Assembly (NCBI RefSeq): GCF_001544515.1 | Contig: NZ_FCOL02000020.1 | Coordinates: forward strand, 1 to 64,000 | Length of the DNA: 64,000 bases | Source of the DNA: Caballeronia terrestris | GTDB taxonomy: Bacteria > Pseudomonadota > Gammaproteobacteria > Burkholderiales > Burkholderiaceae | Direction of reading: 5' to 3' | Part shown: piece after piece, positions 54,199-64,000 of the stretch | Position numbering within the stretch: the stretch's first letter is position 1 | Layout of the letters: each line of letters opens with the position of its first letter | Position numbers and translations under genes: made by a program | The notes under the pieces: generated by a model | What the model was told of the DNA's origin: nothing | What the model saw: only the letters and a program-made list of their open reading frames with translations | Databases searched by the model: none

Positions 54199-57100
54199 TC
54201 ACCCGGTTGCTATCGCCCAGTCGACGGCCGGCAGCCAGGTGACGAATCCCGCATCGGCCAGTTCGGAGCGCACGCGCTGAAGCTCGCATGTCAACGTTTC
54301 GTCGGCGCGGCCCTGAAGCACAACGGCAAGGGCACGTCCGCGTGCCGCGAAGAGCGTCGCCCAGGGCAGCGTCTCCAAACTCGTGTAATCCGCCAGCGCA
54401 TCCGCGTGCCGCGTCGCGCCCGCCGCGTCGCTTGCCGCGAGCATCGCCTCGATGGCATCGCGATGGAACCAGAGATGGTTGTGGCCGACCGCGCCCTGCC
54501 GCAGCAACTCCGCGCCTTGCGCAAGAAGTTGCAGTCGTTCGGCAGGATCGTCGACGGCGCGGCTCAGCGCGCTCAGCGCCTTAGGCCCGCTGAACTGCGT
54601 GCCCACCTCGTCGCAGATCGCGAGCGCCTCGCGCAGCAGCCGCGCGGCGCTCCCGCGCTCGTTCGCGTCGATCAGCAAGCGCGCCCGGTTCTCCAGATTC
54701 TGCGCCTCGAAGCGCCGCGCGCCGAGTTGCCTGATCAGCCGCATCTCGCGTTCGAGATGCAGCCGCGTTTCCTCTGCACGCCCGAGTTCGAGCGCGGCGA
54801 ACACGCCCATCGTCTCGCCGAGCATCTCCGCGCGTGGCTGGCCGACGAGCGCGGCGGCGCGCACCGCCGCCGCGCCGTCGTCGCGAGCCTGGCGCGCTTC
54901 GTTCAGGTACATGCGGCTGAAGCCGACCATCGACCGGTTCGCGACTTCGATCCGCCCGAGCCCGTGCTCGCGGCTCAATTCGACGCAGCGGCTGAAGTGC
55001 TCGAACGCCGTGCGCATGCGGCCTTGCGCATAAGCGGCGTCCGCGAGACCGCCGAGCGCGCGCGCCTCGGCTTCCGGTGAACCCGAGCGGCGCGCCTGAG
55101 CGAGACCGCGCTCGTGCTCGTCGCGACAGCCGTCGATCCGGCCGAGCGGGAAAAGGATGTTGCCGCGCAGATGATGCAGCCGCGCGCGTTCGGCAACGAG
55201 ATCGTGCCGCTCGGCGACTTCCTGCGCAGCGTCGAGCAGCGCCTGCGCTTCGGTCAGCCCCTCGCTCACGCGCAGGCTCTCCGCGAGGCCAAGTTGTGCG
55301 CGGCAGAGGCACACGTCGTCGGGTGCGGCGGCCACGGCCATGCGGTATGTCTCGATCGAAGCGGCGACGTCACCCAGATCGCGCTGCAATTCGCCCATCA
55401 GGCAGCGAAGCGCGTGACGCTCGCCGTCGTCGCGAGCGATCGCAAGGCCGCGCGCGATCAGGCGCAACGCATCGTCCGGCAGCCACGCCGCGCGCTGTGC
55501 AAGCGCCGCGTCGAGATAGGCGTGCGCGGCGCGCGCGTCCTCCGCGCGGTCCAGATGCTGCGCGCACAGCACCGGGTCGCTCGCCGCGAACCATTCCGCC
55601 GCCCGCCGATGCAGCTCGCGGCGCCGCGCGTGCAGCAGCGTGGAATAGGCGCCCTCCTGGATCAGCGCGTGCGCGAACAGAAAATCATCGCCTTCGGGCA
55701 GCACGAGCGCATTCGCGACGAGCCCGTCGCACAAGTAGTCCGGGGCGTCGATCAGTTCACGCAACAACGCAAGCCCGAAGCGCTGGCCGATCGCAGCCGC
55801 GGCCTGAAAAGCCTGCCGGTCGAGCGTGGGCAGGCGGTCCATGCGCGCTAGGACGAGGCTGCGGATCGACGCGGGCACGGCTTCGTCGCGGCCTTCCTCC
55901 GCGTTGCGCAGCAGTTGTTCGAGAAAGAGCGGATTGCCGTCAGCCCGTTCGATGCACGCTAGTGCGACGCGCTGGGTCGCATCGATGAAACTCTCGGCGA
56001 GATCGAGCGCTTCGTTGCGTCGCAAGGGGCCCAGGTCGATCGTCGCGAACGGTGTGCCCCGGCAGCTCGCGCGCCACGCGGCGTCGAGCGGATCGCCCTC
56101 GACGCGCGATGTCATCACGACGAGGCCCGGCCCGTTCGCCAAAGCCGACGCGATCGCCGAGAGAAAGCCGAGCGTTTGGGGATCGGCCCAGTGCAAGTCC
56201 TCGACGACGATCATCACCGGCCCGCGCACGCACGCGCCCTGCACGAGCGACGCGACGAGCGCGCGTTTGCCGCGATCGCGCGCGCGGTTGTCCATCGCGT
56301 CGTAGAGCGTGCGCCATTCGCCGGTTTGCGGCAGATCGAGCAGATCGTGCAGGAACATCAACTGATCGGCCGCAGCCACGCGCAGCGCCGTCTCGCCGCG
56401 CTCGAGGACATCGGCCGTGGGCGCGAGCCCGAGCAGACTCCCGACGATCGCACGAACCGGGTCTTGCCCGCGACCCATGCCGAAGTCGAGCACGCGGCCG
56501 CGATGCGTCGCGAAGCCGAGCGTCTCGGCCGTGCGCCGCATCTCGTCTGCGAGCCGCGACTTTCCGATCCCCGCTTCACCGCGAACGTAGACGGCCTGTC
56601 CCACCTGCGCCGCCAGACACGCCCGCGCGATGCCCCGGAACTGCTCCAGCTCCGCCTTGCGCCCGACGAAGCGGCTGCGGTTGTCGCTCGAACGCTCGCC
56701 TTCGATGCCGGTCAGGCGCCACACGCGTACGGGCGCTTCTATGCCCTTGAAGCGCATTTCGCCGAGGGCGTCGGCGCTGACGGCCTCGCCCAGCGCGCGG
56801 CGCAGACCGTCGGCGATCAGCGTGTCGCCGGGGCCGGCCGCATCGACCAGGCGCGCGGCGAGATTCACCGAATCGCCGATGACCGTGTAGTCGCGAACGC
56901 CCGCACGGCGGTGCGTGCCCGCAATCACCTCGCCGCTCGCGATGCCGATATGCGCGACGAGCGGATGCGCCGCGAGCTTGCCGAGGTCCGCGAGCGCCGC
57001 GTGGATGTCGAGCGCGGCGCGGGCGGCGCGCAGCGCGTCGGTGTCGTGGGCGCGGGGTGCGCCGAAGAGCGCCATCACCGCGTCGCCGATGTGCTTGTCG

Positions 57101-57450
57101 ATGGTGCCGCCGTAGCCGAGCACGATGTCGTCGACGAGCGCCGTATAGCGGCCGATGCGCTCTTTCAGTTCCTCCGCGTCGAGCGTGTGCGACAGCGCCG
57201 TGAAGCCGCACAGGTCGGCGAACAGGATCGTGACTTGACGGCGCTCGTCTGAAGAGGGCGCAGACGTCGGCTCGGAGCGTTCGGCAATCGCGGCCAGCAG
57301 CCGCTTGCGATGCCCGAGCGACGCGACGCCGATCTCCTTCAAATCGGCATCCGATATCTGCGCGAGCATGGCGAGATCTACGTCGTTATTGGCGAACGAT
57401 TGTGCGTATTGTCCGAGCCCGAGCGCGTCGAGCCATTGACCGATATCCAT
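54199..57450 (-). CDS. SAM - class III nucleotidyl cyclase - AAA ATPase - TPR protein
   Basis: 1083 residues. Order: SAM domain (about 1-57, MDIGQWLDALGLGQYAQSFA); class III cyclase (about 70-250) with metal-binding Asp79 (ILFADLCGFT) and Asp123 (DKHIGDAVMALFGAP), and the template region YTVIGDSVNLAAR; then an ATPase with Walker A GEAGIGKS (291-298) and Walker B VVEDLHWAD; then a TPR-like helical region to the end (RALGGLADAAYAQGRMRTAF and similar). Start ATG 57448-57450 with GGGAG. The metal Asp pair is intact, so it should make a cyclic nucleotide, probably cAMP. The ATPase/TPR part suggests a signal input as in STAND proteins. Divergent from the first SulP gene. Confidence 0.93.
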   Translation of the reverse strand: MDIGQWLDALGLGQYAQSFANNDVDLAMLAQISDADLKEIGVASLGHRKRLLAAIAERSEPTSAPSSDERRQVTILFADLCGFTALSHTLDAEELKERIGRYTALVDDIVLGYGGTIDKHIGDAVMALFGAPRAHDTDALRAARAALDIHAALADLGKLAAHPLVAHIGIASGEVIAGTHRRAGVRDYTVIGDSVNLAARLVDAAGPGDTLIADGLRRALGEAVSADALGEMRFKGIEAPVRVWRLTGIEGERSSDNRSRFVGRKAELEQFRGIARACLAAQVGQAVYVRGEAGIGKSRLADEMRRTAETLGFATHRGRVLDFGMGRGQDPVRAIVGSLLGLAPTADVLERGETALRVAAADQLMFLHDLLDLPQTGEWRTLYDAMDNRARDRGKRALVASLVQGACVRGPVMIVVEDLHWADPQTLGFLSAIASALANGPGLVVMTSRVEGDPLDAAWRASCRGTPFATIDLGPLRRNEALDLAESFIDATQRVALACIERADGNPLFLEQLLRNAEEGRDEAVPASIRSLVLARMDRLPTLDRQAFQAAAAIGQRFGLALLRELIDAPDYLCDGLVANALVLPEGDDFLFAHALIQEGAYSTLLHARRRELHRRAAEWFAASDPVLCAQHLDRAEDARAAHAYLDAALAQRAAWLPDDALRLIARGLAIARDDGERHALRCLMGELQRDLGDVAASIETYRMAVAAAPDDVCLCRAQLGLAESLRVSEGLTEAQALLDAAQEVAERHDLVAERARLHHLRGNILFPLGRIDGCRDEHERGLAQARRSGSPEAEARALGGLADAAYAQGRMRTAFEHFSRCVELSREHGLGRIEVANRSMVGFSRMYLNEARQARDDGAAAVRAAALVGQPRAEMLGETMGVFAALELGRAEETRLHLEREMRLIRQLGARRFEAQNLENRARLLIDANERGSAARLLREALAICDEVGTQFSGPKALSALSRAVDDPAERLQLLAQGAELLRQGAVGHNHLWFHRDAIEAMLAASDAAGATRHADALADYTSLETLPWATLFAARGRALAVVLQGRADETLTCELQRVRSELADAGFVTWLPAVDWAIATG

Positions 57451-57671
57451 CGCCACGACTCCCGTCACGTCAGATGATTCGAACGGCGTGCAATTACAGT
57501 GTAGGCCGCGGCGTAGCGCACCGCGCCTTGCAAATTGACACGCCCGCGCGCCACGGCGGATACTCACCGACGGACCGGCCTCCCGAAGTCGCCCCGGGGC
57601 CCTGTTTCCCACCGTCGTTCTCTGCGTCCCGCAATCCGCCAGCACCGTCCCGCATTCCCCGGGAGAGCGCC

Positions 57672-59903
57672 GTGAAGCCAGCCACAGCAGGACCGGCCAT
57701 CGTGCCGCGAAGAGGCGAGCGCATCGCTCGCGTGATCGGCGACCTCTCCGCCGGCACGATATCGACGCTCGTCATGCTCTGCTACGCGATGAGCCTCGGC
57801 ATGATGATCTTCAGCGCCGACCTCGCGCGCTACGCGGAACTCGGCGTGCCGACCGCGCTGGTCAGTTGCGTCGTGACGGCGCTCGTCATCGCGCTCACCA
57901 GTTCGATGCGGATGAGCATCGGCGGCCCCGACAGCAACGCGACGGCGTTCCTCGTCGGCGTCGCGGCGGGTGTCGCGAGCAGCGTGCGCGCGAACGGCGG
58001 AACGCCCGCCGCCATCCTGCTGACCGTGCTGATTTCGATTGCGCTGTGCTCGCTCGTGACGGGCGTCATCCTGCTCGCGATCGGGTCGTCCAAGCGCAGC
58101 CGCTCGCTGCAGTTCCTGCCTTATCCGGTGCTCGGCGGCTTTCTCGCCGGCACGGGCTATCTGCTGCTCGCGGGCGCGTTCCGCGTGCTGACGGGCCACG
58201 CGCCGACCTGGCAGACGCTGCCGCTCGTCACACATCTGCACTGGCTCGCGTGGGCGCCTGCGCTCTTCGTCGGCACCCTGGCTACGGTTCTGCATCGCAC
58301 GTGGAAGAACGTGGCCGCGCTGCCGCTGACGCTCGGCTTCGGCATCGTCGTGTTCTATGGGCTGCTGCGGGTCGCGGGCATCGGCATCGAGGAGGCGCGC
58401 GGCATGGGCCTGTTGCTGCCACATGTGCCGTTGCATGGGCTGCAGATTCCCGAGCTGCATCTGCCGGGTTCCTTCACTAAAGGCGATATCGACTGGCACG
58501 CGATCGTCGCGCATCTGCCGGAGACGCTCGTCGTTACCTCGGTATCAGCGATCACGATTCTGATGAACGCCACCGCCATCGGCAACGCGACCGGACAGGA
58601 CGTCGACCTGAACCGCGAAATGCGCGTGGCGGGCCTCGCCAACATCGCGAGCGGGATGCTCGGCGGCATGGTCGGCTATCAGTCGTACAACCGCTCGATG
58701 CTCAACGCGCGCGCCGGCGCGACGAGCCGCGTCGCGGGCGTGTTCGCCGCGCTTGCGTGTCTCGTGGTGCTGGCTGTGTCGCCGGATCTGGTCGCGCTCT
58801 TTCCGGTGCCGGTGCTTGTCGGGCTGCAGGTTTTCATGGGGCTGCGCCTGCTGATGGACTGGCTCGTCGGCGCGTGGGGCAAGCTCGATCTCGGCGACTA
58901 TCTTCTCGTGCCGCTGATCCTCGGCGTGATCGCGTTCTATGGCGTGGTCGCGGGCGTCGCGGCCGGCGTGCTCGCCGCGTGCGTGAAGTTCGCGTTGCTG
59001 TATGGCCGCGTGAGTTGCGTGCGCATGGAGTTCGATGGCAGCACGCGCACGTCGAACGTCGAGCGCACGCTCGAACAGGCGCAGTGGCTCAAGCAGCGCG
59101 GCCACCAGGTATGCGGATCGTGCCTGCAAGGGTTCCTGTTTTTCGGCACGGCCAATTCGATCGTGCATCGCCTGCGCGAGCGGCTTAAGCAGGACACGCC
59201 GATGCCGGTGCGCTACGTCGTGCTCGATTTTCAGGCGACGAACGGGATGGATGCGTCGGTGTCGGTCAGTTTCATGAAGCTGCATCAGGTGTGCAAGGCG
59301 CGCGGGGCGGTGCTCGTGCTGACCGCGCTGCCCGCCCGCTCGCGCGCGTTGCTTGCGCGCACGGGCGCGTTGAGTCCCGGCGATCTCGAATTCACCACGC
59401 TGGATGCGGGGCTCGAATGGATCGAGGAGCGGCAACTGGAGGGCGGCGCGAAGGCACGCGCCGACGGCGAAGCCGATTTTCATAAAACGCTCGCGCTGCA
59501 CTTCACGCCCGATGCCCTGAGCCGTCTGATGGCGTGCCTGGAGATGTGCGAGGTCGATCGCGGCGAGCCGCTCTTTCTGCACGGCCAGCCGGGCGACGCG
59601 ATGTTCATCGTCGAGCGTGGACACGTGACGGTGTCGCTGCCGTTCGCCGACGGGCGCTCGGTGCGGCTGCGGACATTCGGGCCGGGGACGATCGTCGGCG
59701 AGATGGCGGTCTACTCGCGCAGGCCGCGCAGCGCCAACGTCTTCGCCGACGAACCCGCGCGCCTCTGGAAGATGTCGCTCGACGCGTTGCAGCGCCTGGA
59801 ACGCGACGATCCGGTCACGGCCCAGCAGTGGCACCGTTTCGTCGTGAAGATCATGGCGGCGCGGCTCGCGAGCGCGGACGATGCGTTGCGCGCGGCGTTG
59901 TAA
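57672..59903 (+). CDS. SulP anion transporter with STAS and cyclic-nucleotide-binding domains (copy 1)
   Basis: 743 residues. SulP membrane domain (about 15-440, LVMLCYAMSLGMMIFSADLA, NATAFLVGVAAGVASS, LPYPVLGGFLAGTGYLLL), a STAS domain (about 450-570, VVLDFQATNGMDASVSVSFM) and a CAP-ED cNMP domain (about 595-720). In the last, the phosphate-binding cassette reads GTIVGEMAVYSRRPRSANVF: the Glu (ribose) and the Arg before SA (phosphate) are both present. Start GTG 57672-57674 with GGGAG 7 nt before it; the frame extends upstream to 57402 over the divergent gene's start region. Convergent with the CHASE2 cyclase. Confidence 0.92.
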   Translation: MKPATAGPAIVPRRGERIARVIGDLSAGTISTLVMLCYAMSLGMMIFSADLARYAELGVPTALVSCVVTALVIALTSSMRMSIGGPDSNATAFLVGVAAGVASSVRANGGTPAAILLTVLISIALCSLVTGVILLAIGSSKRSRSLQFLPYPVLGGFLAGTGYLLLAGAFRVLTGHAPTWQTLPLVTHLHWLAWAPALFVGTLATVLHRTWKNVAALPLTLGFGIVVFYGLLRVAGIGIEEARGMGLLLPHVPLHGLQIPELHLPGSFTKGDIDWHAIVAHLPETLVVTSVSAITILMNATAIGNATGQDVDLNREMRVAGLANIASGMLGGMVGYQSYNRSMLNARAGATSRVAGVFAALACLVVLAVSPDLVALFPVPVLVGLQVFMGLRLLMDWLVGAWGKLDLGDYLLVPLILGVIAFYGVVAGVAAGVLAACVKFALLYGRVSCVRMEFDGSTRTSNVERTLEQAQWLKQRGHQVCGSCLQGFLFFGTANSIVHRLRERLKQDTPMPVRYVVLDFQATNGMDASVSVSFMKLHQVCKARGAVLVLTALPARSRALLARTGALSPGDLEFTTLDAGLEWIEERQLEGGAKARADGEADFHKTLALHFTPDALSRLMACLEMCEVDRGEPLFLHGQPGDAMFIVERGHVTVSLPFADGRSVRLRTFGPGTIVGEMAVYSRRPRSANVFADEPARLWKMSLDALQRLERDDPVTAQQWHRFVVKIMAARLASADDALRAAL

Positions 59904-59909
59904 GCCAGC

Positions 59910-62132
59910 TCACTTCGTATCGAACGTATGGACGCCGTCCCAGTCGTCGGGGAGCGGCGTGGCTTGCAGCAGTGCGATGCGCTCACGATACACCGCGAAA
60001 AGCCCGCAGCCGGGATGCCGCTCGATCAGCGCCGCGAGCTTCGCGGACGCCGCCGCCCACTGCCGCGCGCGATAGTGGGCGAGCGCCGCGTGCCATTGTT
60101 CGAGGTCGTCGTGCTCGGCGGGATCGGCGCTGTCCCACGCGGCGCGCGTCATGAGCGGCTCGAACACGGCTACGGGTGTCGCGCGCCCGAGCACTCGCAC
60201 GCGATCGATCTCGCGATACACGATTTCCTGTGTACGCGCGCGTGTCGCTTCGCCGACGAGAATCTCCACGCGATAGTGTCGCGTCAGCCCTTCGAGCCGC
60301 GCCGCGAGATTCACGGCATCGCCCATGACGGTGTACGCCTTGCGTACCGACGATCCCATGTCGCCGACCGTCATCGGCCCTGTGTTCACGCCGATGCCCG
60401 CCCAGAGCGTCGGCCAGCCGCGAGCGGCGAACGCGCGGTTCAAATCGACGAGCACCGCGCGCATCCGCAGCGCCGCGGACACCGCGCGCCGCGCGTGATC
60501 GCGGTCTTCGACCGGCGCGCCCCAGAAGCCCATGATCGCGTCGCCGATGTATTTGTCGAGCGTGCCGCGCTCGTCGCGCATCACGGCGGTCATCGTGCCG
60601 AGATACTCGTTCATCAGCTCGGCGAGCGCCTCCGGTTCGAGCGTCTCGGCGATGGCGGTGAAGCCGAGCACATCGGAGAAGAGCACGGTCAGCTCGGCGC
60701 GGCGCCCGGCCATGCTGTAGCTCTCGGGGTGCCGGCTCATCTCCTCGACGAGTTCGGGCGGCACGTACTGGCCGAAAAGCCGCGTGATGTGCCGCCGCGT
60801 GCGCGACTCGACGAAAAACGCATACGACATGTTCAGCACGAACAGCGCGCCGATCGCGAGCAGCAGCGCGGCGACCGGCTGCGACCACGCGCCATAGCGC
60901 CAGAGCGCGAGATCGCCCGCGATCACGCCGCCCGTCAGCAGGATCGTGAGCAGCGTCGCGCGGGCGGGGACGCGCCACGGCCAGGCGAAGATCATCGCGA
61001 GGCCCGCGACGGCGAGCACGAGCGCCTGCAGCACGCCCGCCGATGCGGGCTCGGAGCGGATCGAGCCGTCGAGCATGCCGGCGATCAGGTTCGCATGGAC
61101 CTCGACGCCCGGAAACACTTCGCCGACCGGCGTCGTGCGCTGGTCGACCAAGCCCGGCGCGGTGGTGCCAAGCAGCACTATCTTGCCGCGCAGCGCACCG
61201 GGCGCGATGCGGCCGGCCAATACATCCGCGACCGAGTAGTAGGGAAAGCTGCCCTGTCGGCCGCGATACGGCACGAGCGCGGCGCCGTTCGCATCGACGG
61301 GGATCGCGAGCGTGCCGCGCGGCGTGCGCAGCGTGAGCGCGGAGAGCGTGGATCTGGCGTCGGCGGGGGCATCGAAGGCGAGGGAGAGCGGCGCGGCGCC
61401 AAGGAGCACGCGCACGACCGCCAGCGACAGCGCCTCGTACACCTCGCCGCGAAATTCGGTGACGAGCGGCACGCGCCGCACCGAGCCGTCGAAGTCGATC
61501 ACCGGGTTGAAGAAGCCGCCACGCCGCGCGGTTTTTTGCAGCGCCGGCAGGTTGCCGCCGTAGCTGCTCCAGTCGAAGAGCGTCATCGGATGCGGGTCGA
61601 AGGCGTGCGCGGGCAGCACCGGCGGTGGAATCGCGCCGCTCGCCTGCGCCTGGTTCGCGAAGTAGTAGCCGAGCACGACGGGCCGGCCTTCGAGCGCATC
61701 GGCGAAGCGGCGGTCGTAGTCGAGTTGCGCGGCGAGGCCCGGCAGCGTGCGCTGAAACTGCGGGTCGTCGCGAAGATCGCCGGTTGCGAGGCGATTGAGC
61801 GCCGCCAGTCCCGAACTCGCGTCCGGCTCGGCGAAGACGATGTCGAATGCGAGCAGCGCGATGCGCTCGCGCGTAAAAAGCGTATCGGCGAGCGTTGTCA
61901 TGCGCGCGCGGTCCCACGGCCAGCGACCGAGCTCCGCGAGACTCTTTTCGTCGATATCGAGGATCGCGATGCGGCTGTCCACGTTGCGCGGCATCGTGAG
62001 CTGCACCTTGGTGTCGTAGATGAGCGCGTCGAGCGTATCGATGAAGCGCACGTCGTAGCGATTCAGCACGTGCCCGAGCAGCGCGAACACGATCGCGAGG
62101 CTGGCGGCATAGCGCAGTGCGTGCAGTTTCAA
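59910..62132 (-). CDS. CHASE2 - transmembrane - class III adenylate/guanylate cyclase
   Basis: 740 residues. One N-terminal helix, an extracytoplasmic CHASE2 sensor (about 30-370, ILDIDEKSLAELGRWPWDRA, KIVLLGTTAPGLVDQRTTPV), three further helices (about 377-450) and a class III cyclase domain (about 490-660) with metal Asp residues in LFSDVLGFTAI and DKYIGDAIMGFWGAP and AYTVMGDAVNLAARL. A TPR-like tail (HYRARQWAAASAKLAALIER) ends the protein. It senses a periplasmic signal through CHASE2. It is 15 bp after the second SulP gene on the same strand, so co-transcribed. Confidence 0.94.
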   Translation of the reverse strand: MKLHALRYAASLAIVFALLGHVLNRYDVRFIDTLDALIYDTKVQLTMPRNVDSRIAILDIDEKSLAELGRWPWDRARMTTLADTLFTRERIALLAFDIVFAEPDASSGLAALNRLATGDLRDDPQFQRTLPGLAAQLDYDRRFADALEGRPVVLGYYFANQAQASGAIPPPVLPAHAFDPHPMTLFDWSSYGGNLPALQKTARRGGFFNPVIDFDGSVRRVPLVTEFRGEVYEALSLAVVRVLLGAAPLSLAFDAPADARSTLSALTLRTPRGTLAIPVDANGAALVPYRGRQGSFPYYSVADVLAGRIAPGALRGKIVLLGTTAPGLVDQRTTPVGEVFPGVEVHANLIAGMLDGSIRSEPASAGVLQALVLAVAGLAMIFAWPWRVPARATLLTILLTGGVIAGDLALWRYGAWSQPVAALLLAIGALFVLNMSYAFFVESRTRRHITRLFGQYVPPELVEEMSRHPESYSMAGRRAELTVLFSDVLGFTAIAETLEPEALAELMNEYLGTMTAVMRDERGTLDKYIGDAIMGFWGAPVEDRDHARRAVSAALRMRAVLVDLNRAFAARGWPTLWAGIGVNTGPMTVGDMGSSVRKAYTVMGDAVNLAARLEGLTRHYRVEILVGEATRARTQEIVYREIDRVRVLGRATPVAVFEPLMTRAAWDSADPAEHDDLEQWHAALAHYRARQWAAASAKLAALIERHPGCGLFAVYRERIALLQATPLPDDWDGVHTFDTK

Positions 62133-62147
62133 ATGAGCCTCACGCCT

Positions 62148-64000
62148 TTAGTGCGACGTCCGCAACTGTTCATTCGCGACCGCGAGCCGCGCCGCCAGCA
62201 TCCGCACGACGAACTCGTGAAAGCGCGACGCGAGCGCCGGGTCCTCGGCTTCAAGGCGCCGGAGCGTCGGCAGCGCGAGGCGCAGGACCACGGCCGGCGT
62301 CTCGGCGATCACGTCGGCGCTGCGCTTCGCGCCCGTATATACCGCCATCTCCCCGACGATCGTGCCCGCGCCGAAACTGCGCAGGCGCATCGTCTTGCCG
62401 TCGTCGAGCGCGAGCGCCACACACACGCGCCCCGATTCGACGAAATACACCGAATTGCCCGGATCGGCCTGACGGAACAGGAACTCGCCGGCCGCGAGCA
62501 TCACCGTGTCGAGGTGCGGCCGCAACGCGCGCAGGCTCGCGGGCAAGCGCGACTCGCCGGGATCGAGCGAACGTTGCGCGGCGGCGCGGCTGCTTGCGAG
62601 CAGTTCGTCCTCGATCCATTCGAGGCCTCGATCGAGATCGTCGAATTCATGCACGCCCGCGACCAGCGTCCCGCCCTTGCGGAACCACGCCTGCAACGGC
62701 GTCGACAAGCCGGTCAGCACCAGCTCCGCGCCCGCGCGCAGACACGCCTGGCGCAGCCGCACGAAGCTCGCGGTGCTCGATGCATCGACGCCGTGCACGC
62801 GGCCGAAATCCACCAGCACGAAGCGCACCCCGCCATCCGCCGTCGCGCGCGAGCTTTCGATCCGCGCGCGCATGTGCGCGAGGATCGAGTGCGACGTGCC
62901 GAAGAACAGAAACCCCTGCAGCGCGATGCCGTAGAGCCGCGCGGCCTCGCGATCGAGCAGGCGGTTCTCGTCGACGGTGCGCTCCACGTTCGAGCGTCGA
63001 GCGCGCCCGTTGAACTCCGCGCGAATGCAGTTGATGCGGCCGTAGCGCACGACGAACAGCAGGCACGCGGCCACGACGCCCAGCACGACGCCCGCGACGA
63101 TGCCGTGCGTCGCGATAATCAGCATCATCGCGGGGATCAGCAGGTAGTCGTGCCACGGCAGGCGCCGGAAGGAATAGAAAAGCCATTCGGCAAGCATCGC
63201 GCCGCCGAGATAAATTTGCAGCCCCACTATGACAGGCTTAGGGAAGAGCGCGATCAGGTCCGGCAGTGCGCCGATCACGAGGAAGCAGATCAGCGCACCG
63301 AGCACACCCGCGCGTCGCCCCCGGACGCCCACGCGCCAATTCATCAGCGTGCGGCTCGTCGACTGGCATCCCGCGATGCCGCCGAGCGCGCCCGTCAGCA
63401 CGTTCGACAACCCGGCGCTGCGCAGTTCGCGATTGAAGTCGATGTCGTGCGACGTGCTGACGCCGATGCTCGTCGTGTTGAGCAGCACGGTCATCGCCGT
63501 GACGGCCGCGACCGCGACGATCTCCGCCGCGTGCGAGACGAGCGGCGCGAGCCAGGCGTCGCGCAGCAGCACGACCGGCAGGCGCAGATCGCGGATCGGC
63601 TCGGGTTGAAACAGGAGGCCCGCGTGACGCGCGCTGTCGAGCGATTGACCGGTCGCGAAAAGCCCCGCATAAAACACGACGACCCCGGCGAGAATCACGA
63701 GCGGCACGAGCGCCACGCGCCGCGTGAACTTCGCGCCGATCAGCAGCCCCGCGCCGACCAGGAGCGCGGGCGCGGTATCGAGCCACGACAGACGCGCGAC
63801 GAGCGGTAGTGTGCGCATCGTAAGCGGCGCGCCGGTCATCACGCGAAACGCGCCTTCGAGGATCAGGAACCCCGTGCCCGCGAGAAAGCCGCCGACTACC
63901 GGAAACGGGATGTACTGGATCGCGTTGCCGCGCTTCCAGTGGGCGAGGGCGTAGAGCAGGGCGCCCGTCGTGAGCGAGGCCGTCGCGAGCAGGATCAGCA
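62148..64000 (-). CDS. SulP anion transporter with STAS and cyclic-nucleotide-binding domains (copy 2, partial)
   Basis: At least 617 codons in the window; the frame continues past its end, so the N-terminus is missing. The visible part begins in the membrane domain (YIPFPVVGGFLAGTGFLILE), then STAS (VLVDFGRVHGVDASSTASFV) and the cNMP domain with cassette GTIVGEMAVYTGAKRSADVI. Glu and Arg of the cassette are both kept. It is clearly a paralogue of the 57672 protein, in opposite orientation. It precedes the CHASE2 cyclase by 15 bp. Confidence 0.9.
   Translation of the reverse strand, partial: LILLATASLTTGALLYALAHWKRGNAIQYIPFPVVGGFLAGTGFLILEGAFRVMTGAPLTMRTLPLVARLSWLDTAPALLVGAGLLIGAKFTRRVALVPLVILAGVVVFYAGLFATGQSLDSARHAGLLFQPEPIRDLRLPVVLLRDAWLAPLVSHAAEIVAVAAVTAMTVLLNTTSIGVSTSHDIDFNRELRSAGLSNVLTGALGGIAGCQSTSRTLMNWRVGVRGRRAGVLGALICFLVIGALPDLIALFPKPVIVGLQIYLGGAMLAEWLFYSFRRLPWHDYLLIPAMMLIIATHGIVAGVVLGVVAACLLFVVRYGRINCIRAEFNGRARRSNVERTVDENRLLDREAARLYGIALQGFLFFGTSHSILAHMRARIESSRATADGGVRFVLVDFGRVHGVDASSTASFVRLRQACLRAGAELVLTGLSTPLQAWFRKGGTLVAGVHEFDDLDRGLEWIEDELLASSRAAAQRSLDPGESRLPASLRALRPHLDTVMLAAGEFLFRQADPGNSVYFVESGRVCVALALDDGKTMRLRSFGAGTIVGEMAVYTGAKRSADVIAETPAVVLRLALPTLRRLEAEDPALASRFHEFVVRMLAARLAVANEQLRTSH

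Follow-up and report, generated by a model that had tools for sequence, protein, structure and literature searches.

Class III nucleotide cyclase genes paired with SulP-STAS-cNMP transporter genes in Caballeronia terrestris and related Burkholderiaceae

Described systems and the Caballeronia terrestris locus

In bacteria, cyclic AMP (cAMP) is known above all for binding to transcription factors. At the Caballeronia terrestris locus described here, genes for two class III nucleotide cyclases (CycA and CycB) alternate with genes for two SulP-STAS transporters that end in a predicted cyclic-nucleotide-binding (cNMP) domain (SulP A and SulP B), in the order CycA, SulP A, CycB, SulP B. The stretch analyzed (hereafter, the window) comprises the initial 64 kb of contig C20, in an assembly of 8.2 Mb in 645 contigs. 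Elements of such an arrangement have been described elsewhere. In sperm, the carrier SLC9C1, which has a cyclic-nucleotide-binding domain (CNBD), is directly modulated by cAMP, an effect abolished by mutation of the cassette Arg, and evidence for its physical interaction with soluble adenylate cyclase (sAC) is cited in the same paper (PMC6052114). The likeness lies in a solute carrier with a CNBD and a cyclase partner; however, SLC9C1 is an animal SLC9 Na+/H+ exchanger with a voltage sensor, whereas the carriers here are bacterial SLC26/SulP proteins with a STAS domain that are linked to the cyclases as genes.

Two bacterial clusters resemble the gene set around CycB and SulP B (module B, below). 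The cyaD1 locus of Sinorhizobium meliloti encodes the CHASE2 cyclase CyaD1, the FecR-domain protein SMc02177, Clr, and SpdA (PMC5498481, PMC4222275), i.e., a CHASE2 cyclase, a FecR-domain protein, a cNMP receptor and a phosphodiesterase (PDE)-type gene together as in module B, and an external signal raises cAMP in this system, to which the outer-membrane protein NsrA belongs (PMC13001267). The receptor there is a transcription factor, however, as opposed to a transporter here. SpdA, of the class III PDE family, acted on 2',3'-cAMP with no detectable activity on 3',5'-cAMP, which calls for caution in reading PDE function from gene position. The Campylobacterota cluster of a CHASE2 cyclase, a PDE, a FecR-domain protein and a TPR protein (PMC9239204) shares the core of module B (cyclase, PDE, and FecR), while a SulP-cNMP target and TpsA/TpsB are not in the set as described in that source.

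In cyanobacteria, bicarbonate uptake is controlled through cAMP, SbtB and SbtA, and the cyclase Cya1 is stimulated by bicarbonate or CO2 (PMC10117731). That is, cAMP from a bicarbonate-responsive cyclase is a proposed regulator of a bacterial anion carrier in that case as well, but SbtB is a separate PII-like receptor and SbtA is not a SulP protein, whereas the receptor is fused to the carrier here. Pycsar pairs also combine a cyclase with a cNMP-domain effector, but their effector and accessory domains differ, the matches being restricted to the shared domains. Cyclase-receptor clusters, CHASE2-FecR-PDE clusters and cAMP-controlled carriers are, in short, known already; what appears to be new is the pairing of a SulP-cNMP carrier with a cyclase, for which the genomic case is strong and of which no description was found among the matches listed in the open-licence literature (titles and beginnings of abstracts).

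Gene pairing and conserved residues

SulP genes with a cNMP domain (SulP-cNMP genes) are carried by 24 of 200 Burkholderiaceae genomes, that of C. terrestris included. The 23 other genomes have 31 such genes between them, along with 63 matches to Guanylate_cyc, a few being weak, and a cyclase match lies within 5 kb of 24 of the 31 SulP-cNMP genes vs. 1 of 80 for their ordinary SulP genes (three split genes counted once each, short fragments included). Random placement would bring 0.16 of the 31 genes near a cyclase, although the 31 are not independent, because their host genomes are related; the family sample, like the order and phylum samples below, is a draw from a larger genome set. Further, a cyclase gene is present at 61 of 80 named loci (the best 80 of 444 relatives, some of them in genomes that the family sample also covers) and lies less than 600 bp from the SulP gene for 70 of the 89 distinct proteins of the core clade defined below. 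The sole ordinary SulP gene near a cyclase (L242, on contig C27 of G183) is neighbored by a gene for a 565-aa cyclase-domain protein, the domain ending about 1.5 kb upstream; the cyclase of another locus (L243) has the same length.

In the window, CycA (1085 aa; SAM, class III cyclase, AAA ATPase and TPR, by Pfam SAM_1, Guanylate_cyc, AAA_16 and TPR_12) occupies 54199..57456 on the minus strand, with its catalytic domain at 56719..57246 (minus strand; PF00211, E 5.9e-18). A divergent intergenic region (57457..57671, as given by the gene ends) separates it from SulP A, a protein of 743 aa (57672..59903, plus strand; SLC26/SulP transporter, STAS and cNMP-binding domains, by PF00916, PF01740 and PF00027) that is 99% identical to a Caballeronia humi protein and whose start was placed by this 743-aa homologue; its cNMP domain lies at 59550..59798 (plus strand; PF00027, E 1.1e-18) and holds the phosphate-binding cassette GEMAVYSRRPRSA. 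CycB (740 aa; CHASE2, E 5.2e-52, and Guanylate_cyc by Pfam) follows at 59910..62132 on the minus strand, convergent with SulP A and 6 bp from it, with its catalytic domain at 60180..60701 (minus strand; PF00211, E 7.9e-20). The visible part of SulP B, with the same SulP, STAS and cNMP domains by Pfam, extends from 62148 to the window end at 64000 on the minus strand and beyond it, its cNMP domain (62253..62498, minus strand; PF00027, E 1.2e-20) being the best cNMP match of the genome; the full protein has 733 aa and its gene reaches about position 64349 of the contig (L030:4149-6350). An earlier sequence-only reading of the window had described four genes of this order and domain make-up, with 15 bp between SulP B and CycB, two differing input domains (the cytosolic AAA/TPR part of CycA and CHASE2 in CycB), both metal Asp kept in both cyclases and the cassette Glu and Arg in both cNMP domains, and gene coordinates, Pfam and the alignments below agree with it on all of these. 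It did not include the genes for FecR, TpsB and TpsA that lie upstream of SulP B in the same direction, beyond the window. On the plus strand, an open frame of 1293 aa (window 59928-63809) runs antisense to CycB and SulP B, most likely as a by-product of the high GC content.

A profile search of the whole 8.2-Mb genome returned 3 class III cyclase matches, 6 SulP genes and 22 cNMP matches, and a cNMP match coincides with a SulP gene in only two of the six cases, SulP A and SulP B. Both have the transmembrane (TM) domain Sulfate_transp plus STAS that mark the SulP/SLC26 family, and a structure search with a model of SulP A, which barely probed its cNMP part, points to an SLC26-type fold. Assignment of a substrate from sequence was dropped, as no SulP equivalog cut-off was reached: SulP A and SulP B (the latter scored from its window part) gave 91.3 and 105.6 bits against 380.45 for the sulfate permease TIGR00815, 48.0 and 67.1 against 880 for BicA, and 75.6 and 61.4 against 614 for DauA. 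Their cNMP domains score 65.7 and 73 bits, respectively, and keep GE...RS in the cassette; the Glu and Arg are present in all 89 core-clade proteins (88 by a strict pattern and the 89th by eye), and the top-scoring solved relatives of the SulP A domain are the nucleotide-binding domains of PKA and PKG. Both C-terminal domains are predicted to bind cyclic nucleotides. SulP proteins with a cNMP tail are not rare, occurring in 61 of 398 sampled Pseudomonadota genomes.

Both cyclases show DKDTNR at the alignment columns that we take to be the class III catalytic positions (two metal Asp, purine-binding Lys and Thr or Asp, Asn, and Arg), and thus have the residues of class III nucleotide cyclases. 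The class IIIb, bicarbonate-responsive cyclases are marked by a purine-position Thr that replaces Asp, so that CycA and CycB may both be class IIIb-like and possibly bicarbonate-responsive. The best solved-structure matches of CycA are the adenylate cyclases 2w01, 3r5g (CyaB) and 1wc0, with adenylate cyclase type 10 a weaker match, and those of CycB likewise include 2w01, 3r5g and 1wc0; the domain layout of CycA presumably resembles that of mammalian sAC as well. CycA scores 171.8 bits against a cut-off of 705.75 for the TOMM kinase/cyclase fusion TIGR03903. Among distinct SulP-adjacent cyclases, both Asp, the Thr, Asn and Arg, and Lys or Arg are kept in 54 of 55 long and 16 of 16 CHASE2 proteins, as opposed to unlinked long cyclases, which vary at these positions (DKDTNR in 9 of 34; all three counts are de-duplicated).

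The third class III cyclase of the genome, again of SAM-cyclase-AAA-TPR type (contig C5, L031:6450-11177), is divergent from a LuxR-type helix-turn-helix gene with a cNMP-binding domain and appears to form another cyclase-receptor pair, with a transcription factor as the predicted receptor; L239 has the same arrangement, with a cyclase 97% identical. That every cyclase has a cNMP neighbor holds for all 3 in this genome and is false in general: in a profile scan, a cNMP-domain gene was present at 4 of 35 loci around cyclases located away from SulP (L210-L244), i.e., the SulP remnant of L228, an adjacent gene in L239, one a gene away in L230 and one farther off in L240.

Two modules and their history

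The four genes belong to two separately conserved modules. Module A is the divergent pair of a SAM-cyclase-AAA-TPR gene and a SulP gene, and module B is the run TpsA-TpsB-FecR-SulP-CHASE2 cyclase (FecR was located by tblastn in four of the module B loci). Among the loci examined, only this one and that of C. humi/G217 have the two next to each other. The sequence-only reading had proposed one local four-gene circuit and had staked it on co-occurrence beyond this strain; the cyclase/SulP-cNMP pairing is indeed conserved (24 of 31 vs. 1 of 80 ordinary SulP genes within 5 kb), but the single circuit does not stand.

The flanks of the 53 module A pairs fall into 30 contexts, 22 of which occur a single time (contig ends and the gene caller may inflate these numbers), and the pair therefore persists while its surroundings change. 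The custom codon-usage caller missed the SulP gene of L154 and genes of the low-GC L110. A shared CRP-like site in the divergent regions was rejected as too weak, with two-mismatch best matches in 8 of 53 against about 2.5 expected from shuffles. Paraburkholderia saeva (L109 and L205) has a full-length CycA frame next to a SulP A gene that is broken into two open frames, of 394 and 365 aa.

A 4-nt overlap joins the SulP gene to the cyclase gene in 12 of the 16 module B rows (the window and L030 being the same gene). A point that the sequence-only reading lacked is that a gene for an HxHxDH protein of the metallo-beta-lactamase (MBL) fold, a likely PDE, follows the cyclase gene in 12 of 15 module B loci, the distinct proteins having HSHLDH, in line with the HXHLDH motif given for class II PDEs in PMC4222275 (9 of 12), or HAHIDH (3 of 12). 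The one member scored (L088) gave 47.3 bits to PDEase_II (cut-off 23.7), behind 54.8 to Lactamase_B_2, has yeast PDE1 as its best solved relative, and matches the RNase Z and cyclic-nucleotide PDE equivalog profiles, all under their cut-offs. The gene is not beside module B in the C. terrestris genome, G217 or L200, and a search of the C. terrestris genome with the PDE protein, made without a positive control, found none.

The cyclase partners also differ in kind. Besides the divergent SAM-cyclase-AAA-TPR and the tandem, downstream CHASE2 cyclase, the partners include a long cyclase encoded upstream and in tandem in P. monticola (L107/L209) and a REC-cyclase 53 bp upstream of the SulP-cNMP gene within a chemotaxis-type gene run (L110); these further partners in L110 and L209 suggest that the link is to cyclases as such, and partners appear to have been exchanged during evolution. 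The L110 run (L110:4985-10776, from a genome of 2.0 Mb in the same family) has, as read from the sequence, cheW-, cheB- and cheR-like genes, then the response-regulator cyclase and SulP-cNMP, and is a possible chemotaxis-linked version of the pairing. In G012, where the cyclase lies 4.4 kb from the SulP-cNMP gene, two tandem genes of SulP-cNMP type, two further genes and a class III cyclase all run in the same direction (L111).

In a SulP tree of 112 of 138 rows (proteins under 600 aa and exact duplicates dropped; a quick method with midpoint root and many long distant branches), the SulP proteins of both modules fall in one 91-row clade with support 100, two rows being duplicates of the window genes; within it, module A forms a 72-row clade and the Caballeronia-type module B a 13-row clade (support 100 each). 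A downstream CHASE2 cyclase also occurs on other SulP branches (L083, L084, L098, and L100), and the CHASE2 pairing may be the older one, lineage A having acquired a new cyclase.

Proposed control of transport and its alternatives

Given that the pairing is kept in many relatives, the messenger probably switches the carrier. That is, we consider it reasonably probable that the nucleotide made by each cyclase, most likely cAMP, binds the cNMP domain of the neighboring SulP protein and changes anion transport. The domain make-up, the intact catalytic and binding-cassette residues and the conserved gene pairing are observations, and four further features, i.e., the flank contexts, the 4-nt overlaps, the varied partners and the kept catalytic positions, argue for function. 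From these we infer the gating of transport, as well as the kind of anion and of input. Each cyclase would be the main or a dedicated source of the nucleotide, with cAMP favored over cGMP because of the Lys/Thr cyclase signature and the class-II PDE partner, and binding to the C-terminal domain of the adjacent SLC26-type protein would alter anion transport. The lack of a class I adenylate cyclase match in 24 genomes (below) also speaks for this reading. Module B would transmit a signal from the envelope, with TpsA/TpsB, a secreted pair, and FecR setting CycB activity via CHASE2; SulP B, encoded beside the cyclase, would be one target, and the class-II-type PDE would end the signal in most relatives. 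Module A would pass a cytosolic cue, perhaps bicarbonate, to SulP A, with CycA reading it through its AAA/TPR part.

Several findings weigh against this reading. Some CNBDs are unresponsive to cyclic nucleotides (PMC6052114). The SulP-adjacent cyclase of L107/L209 reads DQDAIR, without the Lys, Thr and Asn, and its catalytic site looks degenerate. Seven of the 31 family genes and 19 of the 89 core proteins have no adjacent cyclase, the latter comprising a 16-member Caballeronia group, C. telluris and two Duganella, while C. arationis (L132) has CycA at the very site where the cyclase-less Caballeronia and C. telluris have none. The order sample has a cyclase within 5 kb of 1 of 19 SulP-cNMP genes, and 2 of its 16 genomes (G067 and G117) are without any Guanylate_cyc match; in the phylum scan (60 of 70 other SulP places, custom cyclase profile, several loci ending at contig ends), a cyclase lies within 1 kb at 2 of 60 loci, and another match, a weak one, is 5.6 kb away. 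The pairing thus belongs to one SulP-cNMP subfamily, and most other Pseudomonadota SulP-cNMP loci examined are without an adjacent cyclase. In both Duganella loci (L193 and L197), a SulP-cNMP gene of the module clade stands without a cyclase within 8 kb on either side, and the gene just upstream of it encodes what we take to resemble an Nramp metal transporter.

Complete loss of CycA does not account for the seven unlinked SulP A genes, since all seven genomes have a CycA-family cyclase on another contig. These are 66-75% identical to linked CycA, as opposed to 26-34% for the other long cyclases compared, except for an extra copy in G183 (69%), a genome that also has a linked one. The unlinked cyclases of G278 and G237 group with 49 linked CycA (support 0.989), and the remaining five, together with the extra G183 copy, fall in a wider group (0.935) that holds 54 of the 55 linked CycA. 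A further adverse point is that CycA-like proteins of 67-68% identity are among the matches listed from Bradyrhizobium and a Rhizobiales bacterium, and simple relocation of CycA is therefore not established.

Adverse as well, SulP B is not intact in the module B that three Caballeronia (L227-L229) keep: no remnant was found in L227, an internal deletion in L228 leaves a 239-aa frame that retains the cNMP domain between FecR and the CHASE2 cyclase, and L229 has small remnants at the same place. TpsA, TpsB, FecR and the cyclase persist in L228 and L229, and the PDE in L229 but not in L228. CycB therefore also serves something else, perhaps a role tied to the TpsA/TpsB system.

Alternatively, the carrier might feed the cyclase, with SulP importing bicarbonate or another anion that activates a Lys/Thr (class IIIb-like) cyclase, the cNMP domain serving as feedback and the chief output being the cAMP pool and its transcription regulators. 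The purine-position Thr of both cyclases and their solved relatives (2w01, 3r5g, and 1wc0) would fit, as would the TM domain of the SulP A model, which matches BicA best, 1.3 Z units above SLC26Dg. So would the lack of any class I adenylate cyclase match in 24 genomes, that of C. terrestris included (an E. coli control was positive), from which it follows that the class III cyclases may supply global cAMP. The bicarbonate- or CO2-stimulated cyclase reported from Synechocystis (Cya1; PMC10117731) offers a precedent. However, the BicA cut-off is far off (48.0 and 67.1 vs. 880 bits), the fold reveals no substrate, and a receptor domain on the transporter, with cassette residues kept in 89 of 89 core proteins, fits control of transport; we regard this alternative as unlikely.

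Somewhat less likely still, both genes might merely answer the same envelope or metabolic stress with no direct signalling between their products, the cNMP domain binding nothing or another ligand. Shared regulation would agree with L227-L229, where module B persists though SulP B is not intact, and with the 19 of 89 core SulP genes that have no adjacent cyclase, but cyclases of different build partner the same SulP family, SulP genes without the cNMP domain are almost never linked (1 of 80), and the cassette residues are retained. That the pair is a Pycsar-like defence system, in which the cyclase answers infection and the cNMP-domain membrane protein is the effector, is highly improbable, as the PADLOC PycC and PycTIR/TIR-effector matches (up to 100 bits for CycB and 52 for SulP B) are confined to the shared cyclase and cNMP domains, and wide retention in one clade with a full SLC26 carrier as partner seems unlike a defence island.

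Hence, we favor control of the carrier by the cyclase. It is possible, and we propose this tentatively, that the genes form a self-contained cassette in which the nucleotide is made, sensed and, in most relatives, destroyed by the products of adjacent genes and gates an SLC26 carrier directly, that the lineage has swapped cyclases more than once, and that module A is a bacterial counterpart of the sperm couple of sAC and a CNBD carrier, with bicarbonate as a possible shared signal. A cyclase, a receptor-bearing carrier and often a phosphodiesterase encoded together point to direct control of transport by cAMP, and the gene set is a compact system that is amenable through its soluble domains. 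If true, it would represent a simple prokaryotic model for the control of SLC26 carriers by a ligand.

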